Positions 1,756 through 37,919 of a stretch of 64,000 bases of DNA are shown here, piece by piece. The notes beneath the pieces are model-generated. The model was not told the origin of the DNA, did no database searches, and saw only the letters and a program-made list of their open reading frames with translations. Within the stretch, counting starts at the first letter, position 1; every line of letters starts with the position of its first letter. The position numbers and the translations under genes are program-made. Location: positions 186,001-250,000 of the IMG/VR virus record IMGVR_UViG_3300003322_000571; one strand, given 5' to 3'. This DNA is from a virus.

Positions 1756-2838
1756 ATGTCCAATAACGAAGGTAAGTACCTGAAGCAAGCTGGCGGCCGA
1801 CTGTTCCGCTTTAATGATTACTCGAAGCACATGCCTCACCTCAAGTTCGAGTATGACGAGGACTACTACCCTGAAGATAGCGATCTGCCAGATCCACAGA
1901 TTGATCCGTTCATCCCTGGTCTTCGTGTCGAACTAAACAAGGTCGGCGTTAACGGCGTCCATCTTCCTATCAAGTTCCTCCGTCGGGACGGTACGGTGCA
2001 AGAACTTCAGGCAGAGGCTTCGCTGTATGGCTCGCTCGACAATCCTAACGCAAAAGGTCTTAACCTGTCGCGTTTCCCGATCGTCATGCACGACGAGATC
2101 GCTGACCATCTGTCAATCGACGGTCTAAAGGGTGTTCTGCAGAAGCTCCAATCGAAGCAGGGAAGTAGCAACACGTTCTGCAAACTGCGTTTCAAGTATC
2201 CGTGGACGCAAGAAGCACTGCGCACTCGTCAAGAACTGAAGCTCAGCAACTACAGTTCCGTTGAAGAATTGAAGGCAGACCCAGATTTCTTCAAGGAAGT
2301 CGAAGGTGTTTATCTCAGCCACAAGAAGGCAATTGGTCACATCTTCTACGATTGTGTTCTCGAAGCACGTTACCACACTGACGGTAACACTGGCACGTAC
2401 CGTTTCTTCTTGACTGTCGATTACGTGTACAGTTCGACTTGCCCTTGCTCTTTCGAGCTGTCGCAAGATGCAACGCTGAAGCGCGGCCAGGCTGCAAACG
2501 GTCACAGTCAACGTTCGATCGCAAAGATCACTGTTGAATTCGATCCTTCGAAGCACATCGTGTACATCGAAGATATCGTTGAGATGGCTCGCCGTCAAGT
2601 TCCGACAGAAGTTGTGATCATCTGCAAGCGTCGTGATGAACAAGCATTCGCTGAACTGAATGGTTCGAACCTGCTGTTCACGGAAGATGCATCGCGTCTG
2701 ATGTACCAAGGGCTTGACGAAATGTTCGATGCTGGTCAGATTAAGGACTTTAGCGTCGTAACAGAACACATCGAATCACTCCATCCTTGGAGTGCAACCG
2801 CAGTCGTTTACAAGGGCATTCCTGGCGGCTTGCGTTAA
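1756..2838 (+). CDS. folE2: GTP cyclohydrolase IB (FolE2 type)
   Basis: 360 residues. FolE2 converts GTP to 7,8-dihydroneopterin triphosphate, the first step of folate and of queuosine/7-deazaguanine synthesis. Family marks are visible: CPCS at 229-232 holding the catalytic cysteine, NGHSQRS at 248-254 with the conserved His and Gln-Arg, EDIVE at 272-276, and the C-terminal ESLHPWSA at 340-347. The length is somewhat above bacterial FolE2 (about 250-310), mainly from an N-terminal extension of roughly 60 residues and a lysine-rich insert around 160-190. GAGAAACG precedes the ATG. In phages such a gene usually feeds preQ0-type DNA base modification, but the later enzymes (QueD, QueE, QueC, DpdA) are not in this window. 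Confidence 0.85.
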   Translation: MSNNEGKYLKQAGGRLFRFNDYSKHMPHLKFEYDEDYYPEDSDLPDPQIDPFIPGLRVELNKVGVNGVHLPIKFLRRDGTVQELQAEASLYGSLDNPNAKGLNLSRFPIVMHDEIADHLSIDGLKGVLQKLQSKQGSSNTFCKLRFKYPWTQEALRTRQELKLSNYSSVEELKADPDFFKEVEGVYLSHKKAIGHIFYDCVLEARYHTDGNTGTYRFFLTVDYVYSSTCPCSFELSQDATLKRGQAANGHSQRSIAKITVEFDPSKHIVYIEDIVEMARRQVPTEVVIICKRRDEQAFAELNGSNLLFTEDASRLMYQGLDEMFDAGQIKDFSVVTEHIESLHPWSATAVVYKGIPGGLR

Positions 2839-5954: not shown

Positions 5955-6422
5955 ATGAAATTTCTCGCCGAATTATTGACCGATTATCGCCGTCTTGGAC
6001 AACAAGATGATTCTGTGCCTCCGCTTCCTAGCGAAGACGGCACGGGAGAATATGATCTTGACAGCGAAGAAGATATCGATGATACGTTGCCAGATCCCAA
6101 CGGTGAGGAGAATGCAGATCCTGATCCAGACCTCGATGGAGTCGTCAGTCAAGCGTCTGAAGATCCAAATCGTGCAGGTCTGATCCGCACAGTCAAGGAT
6201 GCACATTTGGTGTATAAGCGCAAGACGGAAGATGGATCTTTTGAAGAGTTGTGGATTTACAATGTCAGTTCGCTACGCGGTGATCTTGACATTCGTAAGG
6301 CTATTTTGGCAGGCACAGATATCCCTGTTACAAAAACGCGTTCCCCTGATGGTCAACAGTCGTACGAGCTGTGGTCCGCAGGAAACGCTGAATTGATGCG
6401 AATCGAAGGTCTTCCGAATTAA
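5955..6422 (+). CDS. Unknown acidic protein
   Basis: 155 residues. An N-terminal helix (MKFLAELLTDYRRL) is followed by a very acidic, Pro/Asp/Glu-rich linker over residues 25-70 and a C-terminal domain with VYKRKTEDGSFEELWIYNV and ending in IEGLPN. AAAGGA lies 11 nt before the ATG and a late promoter core precedes it, so it is probably made late and may be a virion or assembly factor. No family recognised. The acidic linker suggests a tether or DNA-mimic-like region, but nothing proves that. Confidence 0.6.
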   Translation: MKFLAELLTDYRRLGQQDDSVPPLPSEDGTGEYDLDSEEDIDDTLPDPNGEENADPDPDLDGVVSQASEDPNRAGLIRTVKDAHLVYKRKTEDGSFEELWIYNVSSLRGDLDIRKAILAGTDIPVTKTRSPDGQQSYELWSAGNAELMRIEGLPN

Positions 6423-7158: not shown

Positions 7159-7947
7159 TTAACGATTCGCTTCCTCGCGTGTAACTGTCTGCAGATGCAT
7201 TTGCAGGTGGTAGACAATTTCCCACACGTTTGGAACGATTCGCTGCTTTTCCCAATCCATATAGATGCTGGAGAACGCGTTGATAATCTGCGTGATCTCT
7301 TGCATCTTACTTTGGTCGTGCCAGAAAAGTTTGACAATGTCAAACTTTTCTCGTTCCCACTTTTCCTTCATCTGACCGAGCGTCGGAGCAGTACCGAAGA
7401 GCAGGACGTTTTGCGGTGTTCCTGGCTCATGGATGATGTAGTACACCTCAACCTTTTGAGCTTCTTGTCGGACTTCAATTTTCTCGGTTACTTTGTTGCC
7501 GAGCCAGTGATTCCAGCTACGCCAATCACTATACACCAGCTCGGGACGAGCTGGAATGTCAGCAGGAAGATTACCTTCTACTTTACACCATTCGAACCAT
7601 TCGTTCGCGGAGCTGAGTTTCAGTTGATGAACAAAAAGCGTCGCTTCGAGCAGGGGCTTCCATTTCGTGCCGATTTTCTCGTTGAACTTGTTATTCGTTC
7701 CAAGGAAATCGTTCCAGGACGTCCACTCATCAACGTACACGCGGTACGGGTAGCGAGGAATTGCTTTCGGTTTATTGGCGTCGTGCCAGTCGAAGAATTT
7801 ACCGCGCGAAGGAATCATTTCACCGCGAACAAACTCCCTAGCCTCGTTCCAAGGTAGGTAGTTGTCGTTCTTGGGGCGACCGCGCCGCTTTTCTTCCTTC
7901 TTTACAGGTGCCTTAGGACCGTCATCAATTTCTACTTGTTCGCTCAT
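7159..7947 (-). CDS. AT-hook protein with two W-rich integrase-type repeats
   Basis: 262 residues. Residues 18-27 (EEKRRGRPKN) form an AT-hook, a minor-groove DNA-binding motif. Two repeat units of about 53 residues follow (31-83 and 98-150), each ending in Y-x-D-x-W-x-SW-N-x-x-LG (VYVDEWTSWNDFLG and VYSDWRSWNHWLG). Repeats of this kind occur in phage-integrase-associated and other phage proteins of unclear function. The C-terminal 110 residues are alpha/beta and unassigned. Its ATG overlaps the stop of the macro-domain gene (ATGA), so it is translated as the third member of the SOD operon. DNA binding is likely; the role is unknown. Confidence 0.6.
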   Translation of the reverse strand: MSEQVEIDDGPKAPVKKEEKRRGRPKNDNYLPWNEAREFVRGEMIPSRGKFFDWHDANKPKAIPRYPYRVYVDEWTSWNDFLGTNNKFNEKIGTKWKPLLEATLFVHQLKLSSANEWFEWCKVEGNLPADIPARPELVYSDWRSWNHWLGNKVTEKIEVRQEAQKVEVYYIIHEPGTPQNVLLFGTAPTLGQMKEKWEREKFDIVKLFWHDQSKMQEITQIINAFSSIYMDWEKQRIVPNVWEIVYHLQMHLQTVTREEANR

Positions 7948-8540
7948 GGATTTTGCAAATCTTCAGTGGTTGTTGTGTACAGACCCAGATGGCGCAGCTG
8001 CGCTTCTCTCCATGTAGATGGAGCTTGTTGTCCTGTAAACACATCGGTATATGCTTGCTTCATTTGTGAAGCGCACAATTGCGGCGGAACTTTACCAACA
8101 CCAGTACCTAAGCCTGTGATAATGATACTCTTAAATTCCTTCTTGCGCATCTGCAAGAAAGCAGCGCGAGCCGCTAGGTAAGGATTGATCGTATTTGGTC
8201 CAAGAACCATCGGAACACGCATAGTTGGTGCCACGATTAGATATGGCCATAATTGATGATTTGTTAGTTGTGTAAATGCTTGTCCAACTAACAGTTCACC
8301 GTCATAGATGTCATTAATTACGCGCTTCACGTCGCGTTCGACGCTCTCCCCTAGCACTGAGGTTAGCAAATAATCAAAACCGCCATCCATAAATCCGTAG
8401 CTATTGGCTGGACTGACGATTGCTGTAGCTGAAACGGAAAATGCCGATTCAATGATTTTTATCTCAGGACAATCGCTGAACTGTTCAGCCCAGGCGTCGC
8501 GCAAGAGAGGCGACGTATCTGCTAAGAAGACTGTTCTCAT
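7944..8540 (-). CDS. Macro-domain protein (ADP-ribose binding or processing)
   Basis: 198 residues. Macro domains bind or hydrolyse ADP-ribose and related NAD derivatives. The signature AIVSPANSYGFMDGGFD (40-56) corresponds to the AxVNxANxxxxxGGGVD loop, and ITGLGTGVGKVPP (141-153) to the glycine-rich phosphate loop. The first Asn of the usual VNAAN motif is Ser here. Start and stop both overlap neighbours by 4 nt (ATGA), so translation is coupled to SOD upstream and to the AT-hook protein downstream. Plausible roles are reversal of ADP-ribosylation or removal of NAD-derived defence signals; both are inference. Confidence 0.8.
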   Translation of the reverse strand: MRTVFLADTSPLLRDAWAEQFSDCPEIKIIESAFSVSATAIVSPANSYGFMDGGFDYLLTSVLGESVERDVKRVINDIYDGELLVGQAFTQLTNHQLWPYLIVAPTMRVPMVLGPNTINPYLAARAAFLQMRKKEFKSIIITGLGTGVGKVPPQLCASQMKQAYTDVFTGQQAPSTWREAQLRHLGLYTTTTEDLQNP

Positions 8541-9151
8541 TGTGCTTTCTCAAAACGCTGATTAACAACTTCCCAGTTGATAATATCGAAGATTTGCTGA
8601 ACGTATGTCTTACGATCTGCAGCATATTGCTCGTCGTACAGGTAAGCATGTTCCCACACATCGATCGTCAAGATAGGGACATCTCCCGATTCAGAAAGAG
8701 GATTACGTGCATTAGGAGTCGTCTTAATCTTCAGATTGCTACCGTTCCAAATCAACCACGCCCAACCTGAACCGAATTGATCGACTGCTTTTTCTACAAA
8801 CTGCTTCTTGAATGTTTCAAACGATCCAAAAGCATCGTTGACTTCAGCTAGAATCGCTTCAGACGGTTTTCCAGATTGATTCTTAGGGCAGAGTGATTCA
8901 AAGTAAAAGACATGATTCCAAGCCTGTGCTGCGTTGTTGAACAGTTTCGAGTCCAACTTCATAATCATGTCGCGTGTGAGCAAGTCCGACAACTCAGTGA
9001 ACTTCTCGTATACTGTTCCCTTGATCAACTTGTTTGTTACATCAAAGTACTTTGCCATATGCTTGGAATAATGCAAGTCAACTTGTCGCTTTGACAAAAT
9101 TGGCTCTAGCGCATCGAGTGCATACGGAAGTTTTGGTTGTTCAAAAGCCAT
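8537..9151 (-). CDS. sodB: Superoxide dismutase, Fe type
   Basis: 204 residues, normal full length for the Fe/Mn family, which converts superoxide to oxygen and hydrogen peroxide. All four metal ligands are present: His27, His80 (in AWNH), Asp164 and His168 (in DVWEHAY). The active-site His31 and Tyr35 are also there, and Gln76 in NNAAQAWNH is the placement typical of Fe enzymes rather than Mn. FGSGWAWL (126-133) is intact. There is no signal peptide, so it acts in the cytoplasm. GGAGAACAAC precedes the ATG and a late promoter core (9169-9176) lies 18 nt further up. It heads the SOD/macro/AT-hook operon. The family call is very secure. Confidence 0.95.
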   Translation of the reverse strand: MAFEQPKLPYALDALEPILSKRQVDLHYSKHMAKYFDVTNKLIKGTVYEKFTELSDLLTRDMIMKLDSKLFNNAAQAWNHVFYFESLCPKNQSGKPSEAILAEVNDAFGSFETFKKQFVEKAVDQFGSGWAWLIWNGSNLKIKTTPNARNPLSESGDVPILTIDVWEHAYLYDEQYAADRKTYVQQIFDIINWEVVNQRFEKAQ

Positions 9152-9168
9152 GTTGTTCTCCTTTGCGG

Positions 9169-9176
9169 TATTTACA
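9169..9176 (-). promoter_or_regulatory. Late-type promoter for the SOD operon (TGTAAATA)
   Basis: One change from TATAAATA, 18 nt before the SOD start, in the 96-nt divergent region. No sigma70 pair was found here, so the operon is probably expressed late. Confidence 0.5.
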
Positions 9177-9220: not shown

Positions 9221-9228
9221 TATAAATA
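9221..9228 (+). promoter_or_regulatory. T4-type late promoter, exact TATAAATA
   Basis: Perfect match to the T4 late consensus, 20 nt before the ATG at 9248 with AGGAGA between. Divergent to the SOD operon promoter. Confidence 0.8.
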
Positions 9229-9247: not shown

Positions 9248-9763
9248 ATGACCGTCAAAAAAGCGTCCGCTAAGCCAACTGCAACGAAACCACGCCTAGT
9301 AGCGGCGGAGCCTAAGAAGGCCGCTGTTCCTTTGATTATTGAATCACACCCGAAGGATTACACCGGATTTCCATTCATTACACTAATCCAGTACCGCAAA
9401 CAACCGATGCTTGCGATTATTGACAATGCAGATGAGGAAATCATTCGTGCGTTTGTTTTGGACCTTTGCGGCCCGGAGCACGTCGATGAAGAGATGGTAA
9501 TCCACGCCGCTGCGGATTGGTATGCGAATAACAAGGGTAATTATCCGTTGTCTATCGAGTTTTCGCGACGTGGAATGACGTCAATTACGTCGAAGATTTA
9601 CCGTGCGTTGAACATTGAGTTCGTATCACGTGTAATCGGTCCTGTGCCAAAGTACCCTCTGACAACAGTTAAAAGTATTAAGAGGCGCCGTCGTAAACCA
9701 ATCCCGAGTGGAGTTGAAATCCACGGCACCAATGTTGTATCACTTGAGCAACTGTTTAAGTAA
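9248..9763 (+). CDS. Unknown basic protein
   Basis: 171 residues. A Lys/Ala/Pro-rich N-terminus (1-27) resembles a flexible nucleic-acid-binding tail. The middle (about 38-125) is an alpha/beta domain, and a strongly basic patch IKRRRRK lies near residue 146. It is preceded by an exact late promoter and AGGAGA, and converges with the next leftward gene, their ends overlapping by 24 nt. Virion DNA-binding or head-associated functions are possible, but no family is recognised. Confidence 0.6.
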   Translation: MTVKKASAKPTATKPRLVAAEPKKAAVPLIIESHPKDYTGFPFITLIQYRKQPMLAIIDNADEEIIRAFVLDLCGPEHVDEEMVIHAAADWYANNKGNYPLSIEFSRRGMTSITSKIYRALNIEFVSRVIGPVPKYPLTTVKSIKRRRRKPIPSGVEIHGTNVVSLEQLFK

Positions 9764-10220: not shown

Positions 10221-10228
10221 TATTTATA
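10221..10228 (-). promoter_or_regulatory. T4-type late promoter, exact TATAAATA
   Basis: Minus-strand TATAAATA, 20 nt before the winged-helix-like gene and just after the stop of the polymerase C-half gene. Confidence 0.75.
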
Positions 10229-10799
10229 TCACGTCAGCAGCGATCAAATGCAATTGAAGAACGATAGTCAAAGCATATGAAATAGCGTGAGACTTCTTGT
10301 AGTACGGCGTATCAACCTTCTGATACAACTCTTTTCTCAATGCCGACCGATCAGAACTTGCAATGTACCGATCGATCAAGTACCGCTTACCGGGCCGAAT
10401 CAATGCAATACAATCAGCGAGCTCTTCGACAGACTGTGGTCGAATGCGTTGCAGCATTTCAGCGTGCTTACTTAGTTGGAACAACTTCTTAACGACATTT
10501 TCGTCTAACAGCAGATCCCACTTCGGAGGATGTTTGATCAGTTGACGGATTTCCTCCTTCGACTCAAACATGTCAAGGACACTCAAGTGAAGAAAGTCGA
10601 TCTTGAAGTACCCCAACACTTCTGCCTCTTCATAGGGAATCGCCGCGAAACCTGTGACAGGATCAACGGGAATATCTTGAAAGTAGTGGCCACAATTGTG
10701 TTTGATCAGTTCACCGTTTCTTACTTGAGACGCAGCGACAGCTTCACGCATAATCTTGCGTGGATCAAACTTAGTAGGGAAGTCGATGTCAATATCCAT
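10224..10799 (-). CDS. C-terminal half of a split, minimal Pol III alpha (C-family) DNA polymerase
   Basis: 191 residues. The start MDIDIDF matches the PDxDxDF motif of bacterial DnaE, placing the two catalytic Asp at residues 4 and 6. GYFKIDFLHLSVLD (63-76) matches the GLVKFDFLGL block, with Asp68 as the third catalytic carboxylate. ELADCIALIRPG (126-137) matches the later ALYRPG block and KKSHAISYAL (168-177) the NKSHAAAYA block. PHP, tau-binding and OB parts are missing and inter-motif spacing is greatly shortened. An in-frame stop lies three codons upstream, there is no ribosome-binding site, and a TATAAT box ends only 5 nt before the ATG, implying a leaderless mRNA. The other half is at 21845-22408. 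Confidence 0.75.
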   Translation of the reverse strand: MDIDIDFPTKFDPRKIMREAVAASQVRNGELIKHNCGHYFQDIPVDPVTGFAAIPYEEAEVLGYFKIDFLHLSVLDMFESKEEIRQLIKHPPKWDLLLDENVVKKLFQLSKHAEMLQRIRPQSVEELADCIALIRPGKRYLIDRYIASSDRSALRKELYQKVDTPYYKKSHAISYALTIVLQLHLIAADVI

Positions 10800-36270: not shown

Positions 36271-36327
36271 GGGTTACCTAGTTATGAATTGACACGCACT
36301 ATAACTAGGTAACCCTAAAAATGTCAA
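36271..36327 (-). promoter_or_regulatory. Early promoter overlapping a 15-bp inverted repeat before the HD/kinase gene
   Basis: -35 TTGACA (36322-36327), 18-nt spacer, -10 TATAGT (36298-36303). GGGTTACCTAGTTAT (36271-36285) pairs perfectly with ATAACTAGGTAACCC (36301-36315). The expected start (about 36291) is in the loop, so promoter-proximal mRNA keeps only the near arm. That arm contains the weak AGG ribosome-binding site 3 nt from the ATG context. Confidence 0.7.
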
Positions 36328-37898
36328 CCGAAAACCATTCCGCCACCAAGATCGTTTTCATCCCAGTCAGAAACGTCTGACGACGAATCGTCGAAATAAG
36401 CATGTGCGTACAATTTGTCGTATGCTTCTTGGTCAAAAGAAGAGATTTCCTCAAGCAACCTAACAGCAATGACAGAAGCCATAATCAAGTCGTCCGTTGC
36501 ACCAACTTTAGCAGCGTAAGATCCACCTTTACGGACGAAGTTCTTCAACTCATGCAACAAAGCCTTGGACTTGATGTGCAAGCTATTACGTTCAAGCATT
36601 TCTTTCAATGCAAGGCATCCCTTGATCTTTGTCTTACCAGTTGTTGTCATTCCCTTGCGCTTTTGGCCAGCTTCGGAAACAAACTCAGCGATATCTGGTG
36701 GATCATCGTCTGCTTCCATTAGAGCAACAATAGCTTCACCAACACCGTTTACTTCGACAGAGTAGTATACGTTCGCTTCGGCTTTTTCGTAGATCCGCAA
36801 CATCTTCTTTAACATATGATAGCCAGTGACAGACGACGCTGTGTTTGATCTAAACTCAGCTACCTGCTCCATCGAAGGGAATTCATATGACACAATTGTT
36901 GTGTAGTCTGAACCAGTACCTGTCGACGGGTCCATACCAATTAGATATACAGTTCCCGCGGTTGGCATCTTGTAGAAGACAATCTCTCCTGCAGTAGCAA
37001 CAGGTTTTCCTGTTACTTTACTGTTTAAGTTCTCAAGGACAATTGTATCAATTAGCAGCGGATCGTTCGAAATGAACTTGCATTCATATTCTTGCTGCCA
37101 ACGGATTTCACCAATTTTAGCAGTTTCTTCACGCTTGAACTTCTCATCGCGGCCAGGTGGTTCGTCCCACTTGACTTCAATTGGTGCGAAACCGTTGATA
37201 CCAACACCGGCAAGTGCAGGATCAGGGTTCGGGTTATTTGCGCCACGCCAAATCTGTGCAAAACGGTTTGTATCACCGTTGGGAGTAGAACAGATAATGC
37301 AACTACCACCGGTCGCAAGCGTTGGTGAAACGGAAGTCCAGAATTCTTCAGCAATTGTGTCACGTACGAATGCAAATTCGTCGAGGAACATCAAAGAGAT
37401 AGAAAGACCACGACCTGTGTTTTCTGTTGTAGCTTGAGAAATAATACGGCTACCATTATCAAACCCAACGCTGTGTTTATTCCATCCGTCGTCTGGTAGA
37501 CCTGGTTTAATCCAGTGCGGAAGACGTTCGTACATAAATCGAACGCGGTTAATCATTTCCATAGCGTTGTCGTTCTTGTTAGAAGCGATCAACACAGTCT
37601 TCTCAAAGTGGAACATAGCGAACCACAGCAGATACGCTCCAGCGATCCAAGATTTCCCAATCTGACGCGGAGCTAGGGCAATTGACAAACGATTGTTTTC
37701 AAATACCTTGATGATTCGGCGTTGGTAAGCACGAAGCTTGAACGGAGCAGAACCTTGGACAGGGTGTTGCAGTTGACAATATGTGTCAATAAAGTACTCA
37801 GCAGATTGCATGCACTTTGAAATCTCATGCACTTGCTCTGCTGTATATTCGTGCTGTTCATTAGCACGTTTTAGAAAGGGATTACGTGGCGCTGCCAT
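36324..37898 (-). CDS. 17: Terminase large subunit (gp17-like)
   Basis: 524 residues from ATG 37898, which follows AAGGAG; a GTG two codons up is less likely. T4 gp17 has 610. The Walker A-type motif is APRQIGKSW (about 76-84), Walker B is LMFLDEFAF (about 169-177), and the C-terminal RNase H-like nuclease shows GMDPSTGTGSDYT and a late VGATDDLIMA Asp pair. It is the ATP-driven motor and nuclease that packages DNA into the prohead through gp20. A late promoter core lies 22 nt upstream. Confidence 0.95.
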   Translation of the reverse strand: MAAPRNPFLKRANEQHEYTAEQVHEISKCMQSAEYFIDTYCQLQHPVQGSAPFKLRAYQRRIIKVFENNRLSIALAPRQIGKSWIAGAYLLWFAMFHFEKTVLIASNKNDNAMEMINRVRFMYERLPHWIKPGLPDDGWNKHSVGFDNGSRIISQATTENTGRGLSISLMFLDEFAFVRDTIAEEFWTSVSPTLATGGSCIICSTPNGDTNRFAQIWRGANNPNPDPALAGVGINGFAPIEVKWDEPPGRDEKFKREETAKIGEIRWQQEYECKFISNDPLLIDTIVLENLNSKVTGKPVATAGEIVFYKMPTAGTVYLIGMDPSTGTGSDYTTIVSYEFPSMEQVAEFRSNTASSVTGYHMLKKMLRIYEKAEANVYYSVEVNGVGEAIVALMEADDDPPDIAEFVSEAGQKRKGMTTTGKTKIKGCLALKEMLERNSLHIKSKALLHELKNFVRKGGSYAAKVGATDDLIMASVIAVRLLEEISSFDQEAYDKLYAHAYFDDSSSDVSDWDENDLGGGMVFG

Positions 37899-37919
37899 AA
37901 ACACTCCTTGTTTACGGCA

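Follow-up and report, generated by a model that had tools for sequence, protein, structure and literature searches.

The presence of an Fe/Mn-type superoxide dismutase (SOD) gene in viral DNA raises the question of whether the phage itself carries the gene, and at what stage of infection and to what effect its product would act. The locus lies in a window of 64,000 nucleotides, the whole stretch of DNA analysed here, which comprises bases 186001–250000 of a 350,089-bp virus record.

The SOD Gene and Its Product

The initial annotation had placed a full-length Fe/Mn-SOD at this locus without naming a strand. The gene is intact on the minus strand, with an ATG start, a TGA stop and 0 internal stops, and encodes both Pfam domains (Table 1). 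Sod_Fe_N (72.6 bits) and Sod_Fe_C (115.6 bits) span residues 3–199 and exceed the curated cut-offs (27 bits for PF00081 and 20.9 bits for PF02777) over the full length. This match is far beyond chance, and by its sequence the protein is a member of the Fe/Mn-SOD family. The residues H27, H31, Y35, N72, Q76, H80, D164 and H168 were all located, including the six that had been listed before (His27, His80, Asp164, His168, Tyr35 and Gln76), each at the position given for it. The metal ligands H27, H80, D164 and H168 align with those of all 68 bacterial sequences compared (68/68), while H31 and Y35 constitute the gateway residues. An AlphaFold2 model, based on an alignment of 40 sequences, has a mean pLDDT of 94.7 and the predicted fold is that of an Fe/Mn-SOD; Fe-SOD structures superpose on it with TM scores of about 0.9, and the closest solved structure is Coxiella SodB (3tqj, TM 0.89/0.94).

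An Fe-type pattern is given by Q76 and by the C-terminal position at which Mn-type enzymes carry a Gln; there the window SOD has none and reads TTPNARNPL, compared with STSNAGTPL in the Fe enzyme and STANQDSPL in the Mn enzyme of E. coli. The SodB reference agrees with PDB entry 1isa at all of 192 residues. Judged by the outer-sphere Gln (Gln69 in E. coli SodB), the protein is assigned to the Fe-type (SodB) subgroup. The SodB equivalog NF007832 is the top-scoring NCBIfam model, yet its 174.5 bits stay below the curated cut-off of 348.

Table 1. Features at the SOD locus, in window coordinates.
Feature	Position	Strand	Basis or remark
Fe-type superoxide dismutase gene	8537..9151	minus	204 aa; profile, residues, model
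TGTAAATA, T4-type late promoter element of SOD	9169..9176	minus	motif; same octamer before the sister SOD
AAAGGAG, ribosome-binding site of SOD	9158..9164	minus	sequence; AAAGGAG also in the sister
TATAAATA, divergent late promoter element for gene 9248-9763 (+)	9221..9228	plus	motif
Macro-domain (ADP-ribose-binding-like) gene	7944..8540	minus	start overlaps the SOD stop (ATGA)
Gene of unknown function	7159..7947	minus	ATGA overlap with the macro-domain gene

Genomic Context and the Sister Phage

The terminase gene of the window (36324–37904) is most similar to those of Xanthomonas phage XacN1 (47%) and Stenotrophomonas phages CM1/RAS14 (45%), with further relatives in Atu_ph07, Phosso, the PA5oct group and Vibrio phage 2.275.O. 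The record is therefore that of a jumbo T4-like phage and, on sequence grounds, belongs, with its genome of about 350 kb, to the XacN1/RAS14 branch; its relatives presumably infect proteobacteria. A sister phage is represented by two IMG/VR records; its terminase is 76% identical and its SOD, found at the same place, 46% identical. The order of orthologues common to both phages, designated by their window positions, is 10224, 9740, 9248, SOD, 7159, 6724, 6489, 5955, 1756 and 1177. The shared order on both sides bears out the earlier description of the SOD as phage-encoded. Some SOD matches in phage databases are indeed bacterial DNA, and a mis-binned or chimeric bacterial fragment would be one way to account for the gene, but this is scarcely credible here: phage genes occupy both flanks, the GC content resembles that of the adjoining genes, a phage late promoter and gene overlaps mark the locus, and the identical gene order in a separately assembled phage contradicts an assembly artefact and rules it out.

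Every metal ligand is kept in both SODs, as are His31, Tyr35, Gln76, Trp130, Trp132 and Glu167. Since these residues persist at only 46% overall identity, the active site is under constraint.

The nearest cultured relatives lack the SOD gene. XacN1, RAS14 and CM1 retain the 10224-9740-9248 flank, which is followed by the 5955 orthologue in opposite orientation; no Fe/Mn-SOD is present at that locus, and a search for the Sod_Fe_C domain gave no match anywhere in the three genomes. A 230-aa ORF at the XacN1/RAS14 locus was considered as a diverged SOD and rejected, being the orthologue of window 5955–6422 and giving no Sod_Fe_C match. Because the flank is kept without the gene, the SOD was either gained in the lineage of the window and sister phages or lost outside it.

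Two other genes of this region deserve mention. Window 1756–2838 (+) encodes a FolE2-type GTP cyclohydrolase, which, at 84% identity, is the best conserved of the genes compared with the sister phage and may feed deazaguanine or folate synthesis. The 191-aa product of 10224–10799 (−) matches DNA polymerase III alpha in the finger region alone (PHROG 11778), and this stand-alone polymerase-finger fragment is conserved across many jumbo T4-like phages.

The initial annotation had called for a phylogeny against bacterial SodB. The window and sister SODs form one clade (support 100/99). A quick tree places them within the bacterial Fe-type SODs, a placement limited in what it can say by the selection of the bacterial rows for similarity to the window SOD. 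The best bacterial identity is 49%. Grouping with marine viral SODs was also tried and rejected: these form a separate clade (100/99) with Gly at position 76 in 13/13 sequences, though an AU test does not reject a single clade of window, sister and marine viral SODs (p 0.176).

Late Promoter and Adjoining Genes

The element TGTAAATA lies 25 nt upstream of the SOD start (positions 9176–9169, minus strand). The core motif RTAAATA occurs 27 times over both strands of the 64-kb window. Of the 71 genes in a crude list for the window, 19 have it ahead of them on the coding strand at a distance of 10–50 nt, compared with 0.6 expected, which is an approximately 30-fold enrichment; the antisense control gives 0. 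The genes preceded by RTAAATA include those for terminase, tail tube, tail sheath, a collar/tail-fibre protein and the SOD. A homologue of T4 gp55, a gp55-like sigma, was detected at G000 254286–254582, about 4 kb past the end of the window, with the gp55 sequence of the GenBank T4 record as query (E 7e-8, 30% identity). The combination of a TATAAATA-like element and an encoded gp55 marks the SOD as a putative T4-type late gene, and its expression would fall late in infection. The late-type promoter named in the initial annotation is thus backed by the octamer before both SODs, the enrichment and the gp55 homologue. Independently of the SOD, the RTAAATA elements upstream of at least 19 genes show which genes of the window are likely to make up the late regulon.

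The promoter class is shared with structural genes, which would fit packaging of the SOD in the virion, where it could act as the next infection begins or protect the particle. There is a precedent in the PBCV-1 SOD, a late gene product that is packaged in the virion (PMC7019647), but this is an unrelated SOD type of an algal virus. A late promoter by itself does not imply packaging, and neither a packaging signal nor a virion fusion is visible in the window SOD, so that we regard packaging as unlikely.

The macro-domain gene is probably co-transcribed with the SOD, as the arrangement of the two frames suggests. Relatives of this gene occur on 28 IMG/VR contigs. In the sister phage, the 7159–7947 orthologue directly follows the SOD with no macro-domain gene between them, and a search of the partial sister records gave no macro-domain gene; hence the SOD–macro pairing is not conserved. 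Co-transcription of the two genes would suit a module directed against stress or ADP-ribose-based defence, in which the SOD counters a host defence acting via superoxide or redox stress. Both the lack of a conserved pairing and a late promoter, which is badly timed for blocking an early defence, speak against such a role, and we give it little credence.

Loss of the Dimer-Interface Tyrosine

The initial annotation had credited the protein with all catalytic residues. This is borne out for the Gln, the gateway pair His31/Tyr35 and the metal ligands; the exception is the inter-subunit His30–Tyr166 pair (human numbering), as Leu171 replaces the dimer-interface Tyr beside a 2-residue insertion. 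This Tyr is typical of the Fe/Mn-SOD family, though outside its curated definition, and every row compared has it (68/68 bacterial, 13/13 marine viral). The segment after WEHA reads YY in all of these, YL plus two extra residues in the window SOD (WEHAYLYDEQY) and HY in the sister SOD, which retains the dimer Tyr. In human MnSOD, Tyr166 is hydrogen-bonded to His30 across the dimer, and in the Tyr166Phe variant kcat is reduced about 30-fold and kcat/Km about 10-fold (PMC8024262). The same exchange lowers thermal stability and leaves the enzyme impaired, not dead (PMC9208312). Since the human variant is slowed at the equivalent of Leu171, the activity of the phage SOD may be reduced. Carried over from a human Mn enzyme to a phage Fe-type protein, the comparison predicts a slower or kinetically altered SOD rather than a dead one.

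A more radical reading holds that the broken relay has cost the protein efficient dismutase activity and that it is kept to do something else, for instance to bind metal. Leu171 and the insertion are compatible with this, as is the change of the Tyr position in compact SOD-like proteins of PA5oct-like phages, Vibrio phage 2.275.O and several IMG/VR contigs. However, the protein retains the predicted fold together with the four ligands, Tyr35, His31, Gln76 and Glu167, the sister SOD has the dimer Tyr, and the human variant remains active, which makes such a loss very improbable.

Neither the dimer Tyr nor a counterpart of His30 is present in the compact SOD-like proteins of PA5oct-like phages, Vibrio phage 2.275.O and G041. 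Several jumbo-phage SODs could thus have lost the relay independently, the Tyr only in the window SOD and Tyr and His together in the compact PA5oct, Vibrio and IMG/VR forms, and oligomerisation, kinetics or product inhibition could thereby be tuned to late infection. We put this forward as a speculation, and a rather doubtful one.

Distribution of SODs among Phages

Fe/Mn-SODs had been described as rare in phage genomes, and they are uncommon: by tblastn, only 29 of 50,697 phage records gave a match. Among jumbo phages, clear cases come from 11 Pseudomonas phage records of the PA5oct group and from Vibrio phage 2.275.O; their SODs are already annotated, so a phage SOD is not unprecedented. 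An IMG/VR scan gave 41 loci. No DNA-level relatives, near or distant, were found in phage records. Fe/Mn-SOD is listed among the auxiliary genes of putative Microcystis viruses (PMC12542629), and literature searches on what Fe/Mn-SODs do in phages gave passing mentions only.

Two of the better-scoring non-jumbo matches, MW462191 and Acinetobacter phage MD-2021a, were inspected from outside the set of unannotated OR84xxxx/OR85xxxx records, and both have bacterial chromosome as neighbours. The phage-labelled records MW462191.1 (L158) and CAKLQF020000002.1 (L161) carry the SOD amid bacterial genes (AmpR and a class C beta-lactamase; malic enzyme, Cca and DegS). Some "phage" SOD matches in public records are therefore bacterial DNA, which can mislead surveys of phage genes.

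Jumbo-phage and IMG/VR records also contain SOD-like proteins that are compact or divergent (L159 5935–6483, L160 5833–6402, L194 1363–1869, L036, L038 and L041). They keep the four metal ligands and have changed equivalents of His30 and the dimer Tyr; L159, L160 and L194 lack about 35 residues around the NNAAQ helix.

Proposed Function

The reading that we consider probable is that of a phage-acquired SodB, transcribed late and active in the cytoplasm during virion production. A bacterial Fe-type SodB gene would have been acquired by an XacN1/RAS14-like jumbo phage before the window and sister phages split, and retained by both, presumably to the benefit of the phage. Transcribed late from the T4-type promoter, it would yield a cytoplasmic SOD, with Fe or possibly cambialistic, that converts superoxide to H2O2 and O2 while virions form. 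A working, possibly slower enzyme is the most likely product predicted from the sequence. Protection of iron–sulphur enzymes, proposed in the initial annotation, is a conceivable role. The virus record gave no match to a catalase or an AhpC/TSA family peroxidase, which removes a phage antioxidant pathway from consideration; the peroxide would therefore be left to host enzymes.

The locus represents a synteny-backed case of a phage lineage that retains an antioxidant enzyme behind a late promoter. In a pair of phage SODs that are 46% identical, the active sites are kept and the dimer relay varies, so that both the purpose of a phage SOD and the need for the His30–Tyr166 pair become directly testable.

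Relation to Known Superoxide Dismutases

Bacterial Fe-SODs (SodB; E. coli 1isa and Coxiella 3tqj) share with the window SOD the (predicted) fold, the four ligands, the gateway His/Tyr, the Gln69-type Gln, the Glu bridge and the two-domain architecture. At about 41–44% identity, the window SOD differs from them in Leu171 in place of the dimer Tyr, the 2-residue insertion, extra residues at approximately 50–62 and the phage late promoter.

PA5oct-like Pseudomonas phages (Wroclawvirus) and Vibrio phage 2.275.O are likewise jumbo phages, with terminases 37–40% related to that of the window, and their annotated Fe/Mn-SODs also keep the ligands. In contrast to the window SOD, these proteins are compact, missing about 35 residues around the NNAAQ helix, carry Gly instead of Gln and Leu instead of His31, are only about 31% identical and are encoded in another neighbourhood. 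The SODs of marine viral contigs (IMG/VR; for example L003, L020 and L035) are full-length Fe/Mn-SODs like that of the window, and three of the contigs searched have related T4-like terminases, but the Gly at position 76 in 13/13 corresponds to the Mn-type pattern.

The Cu/Zn-SOD of chlorovirus PBCV-1 (A245R) is also virus-encoded and late-expressed (PMC7019647), the timing predicted for the window SOD. It differs in its unrelated fold and metal, its eukaryotic virus and its reported packaging.
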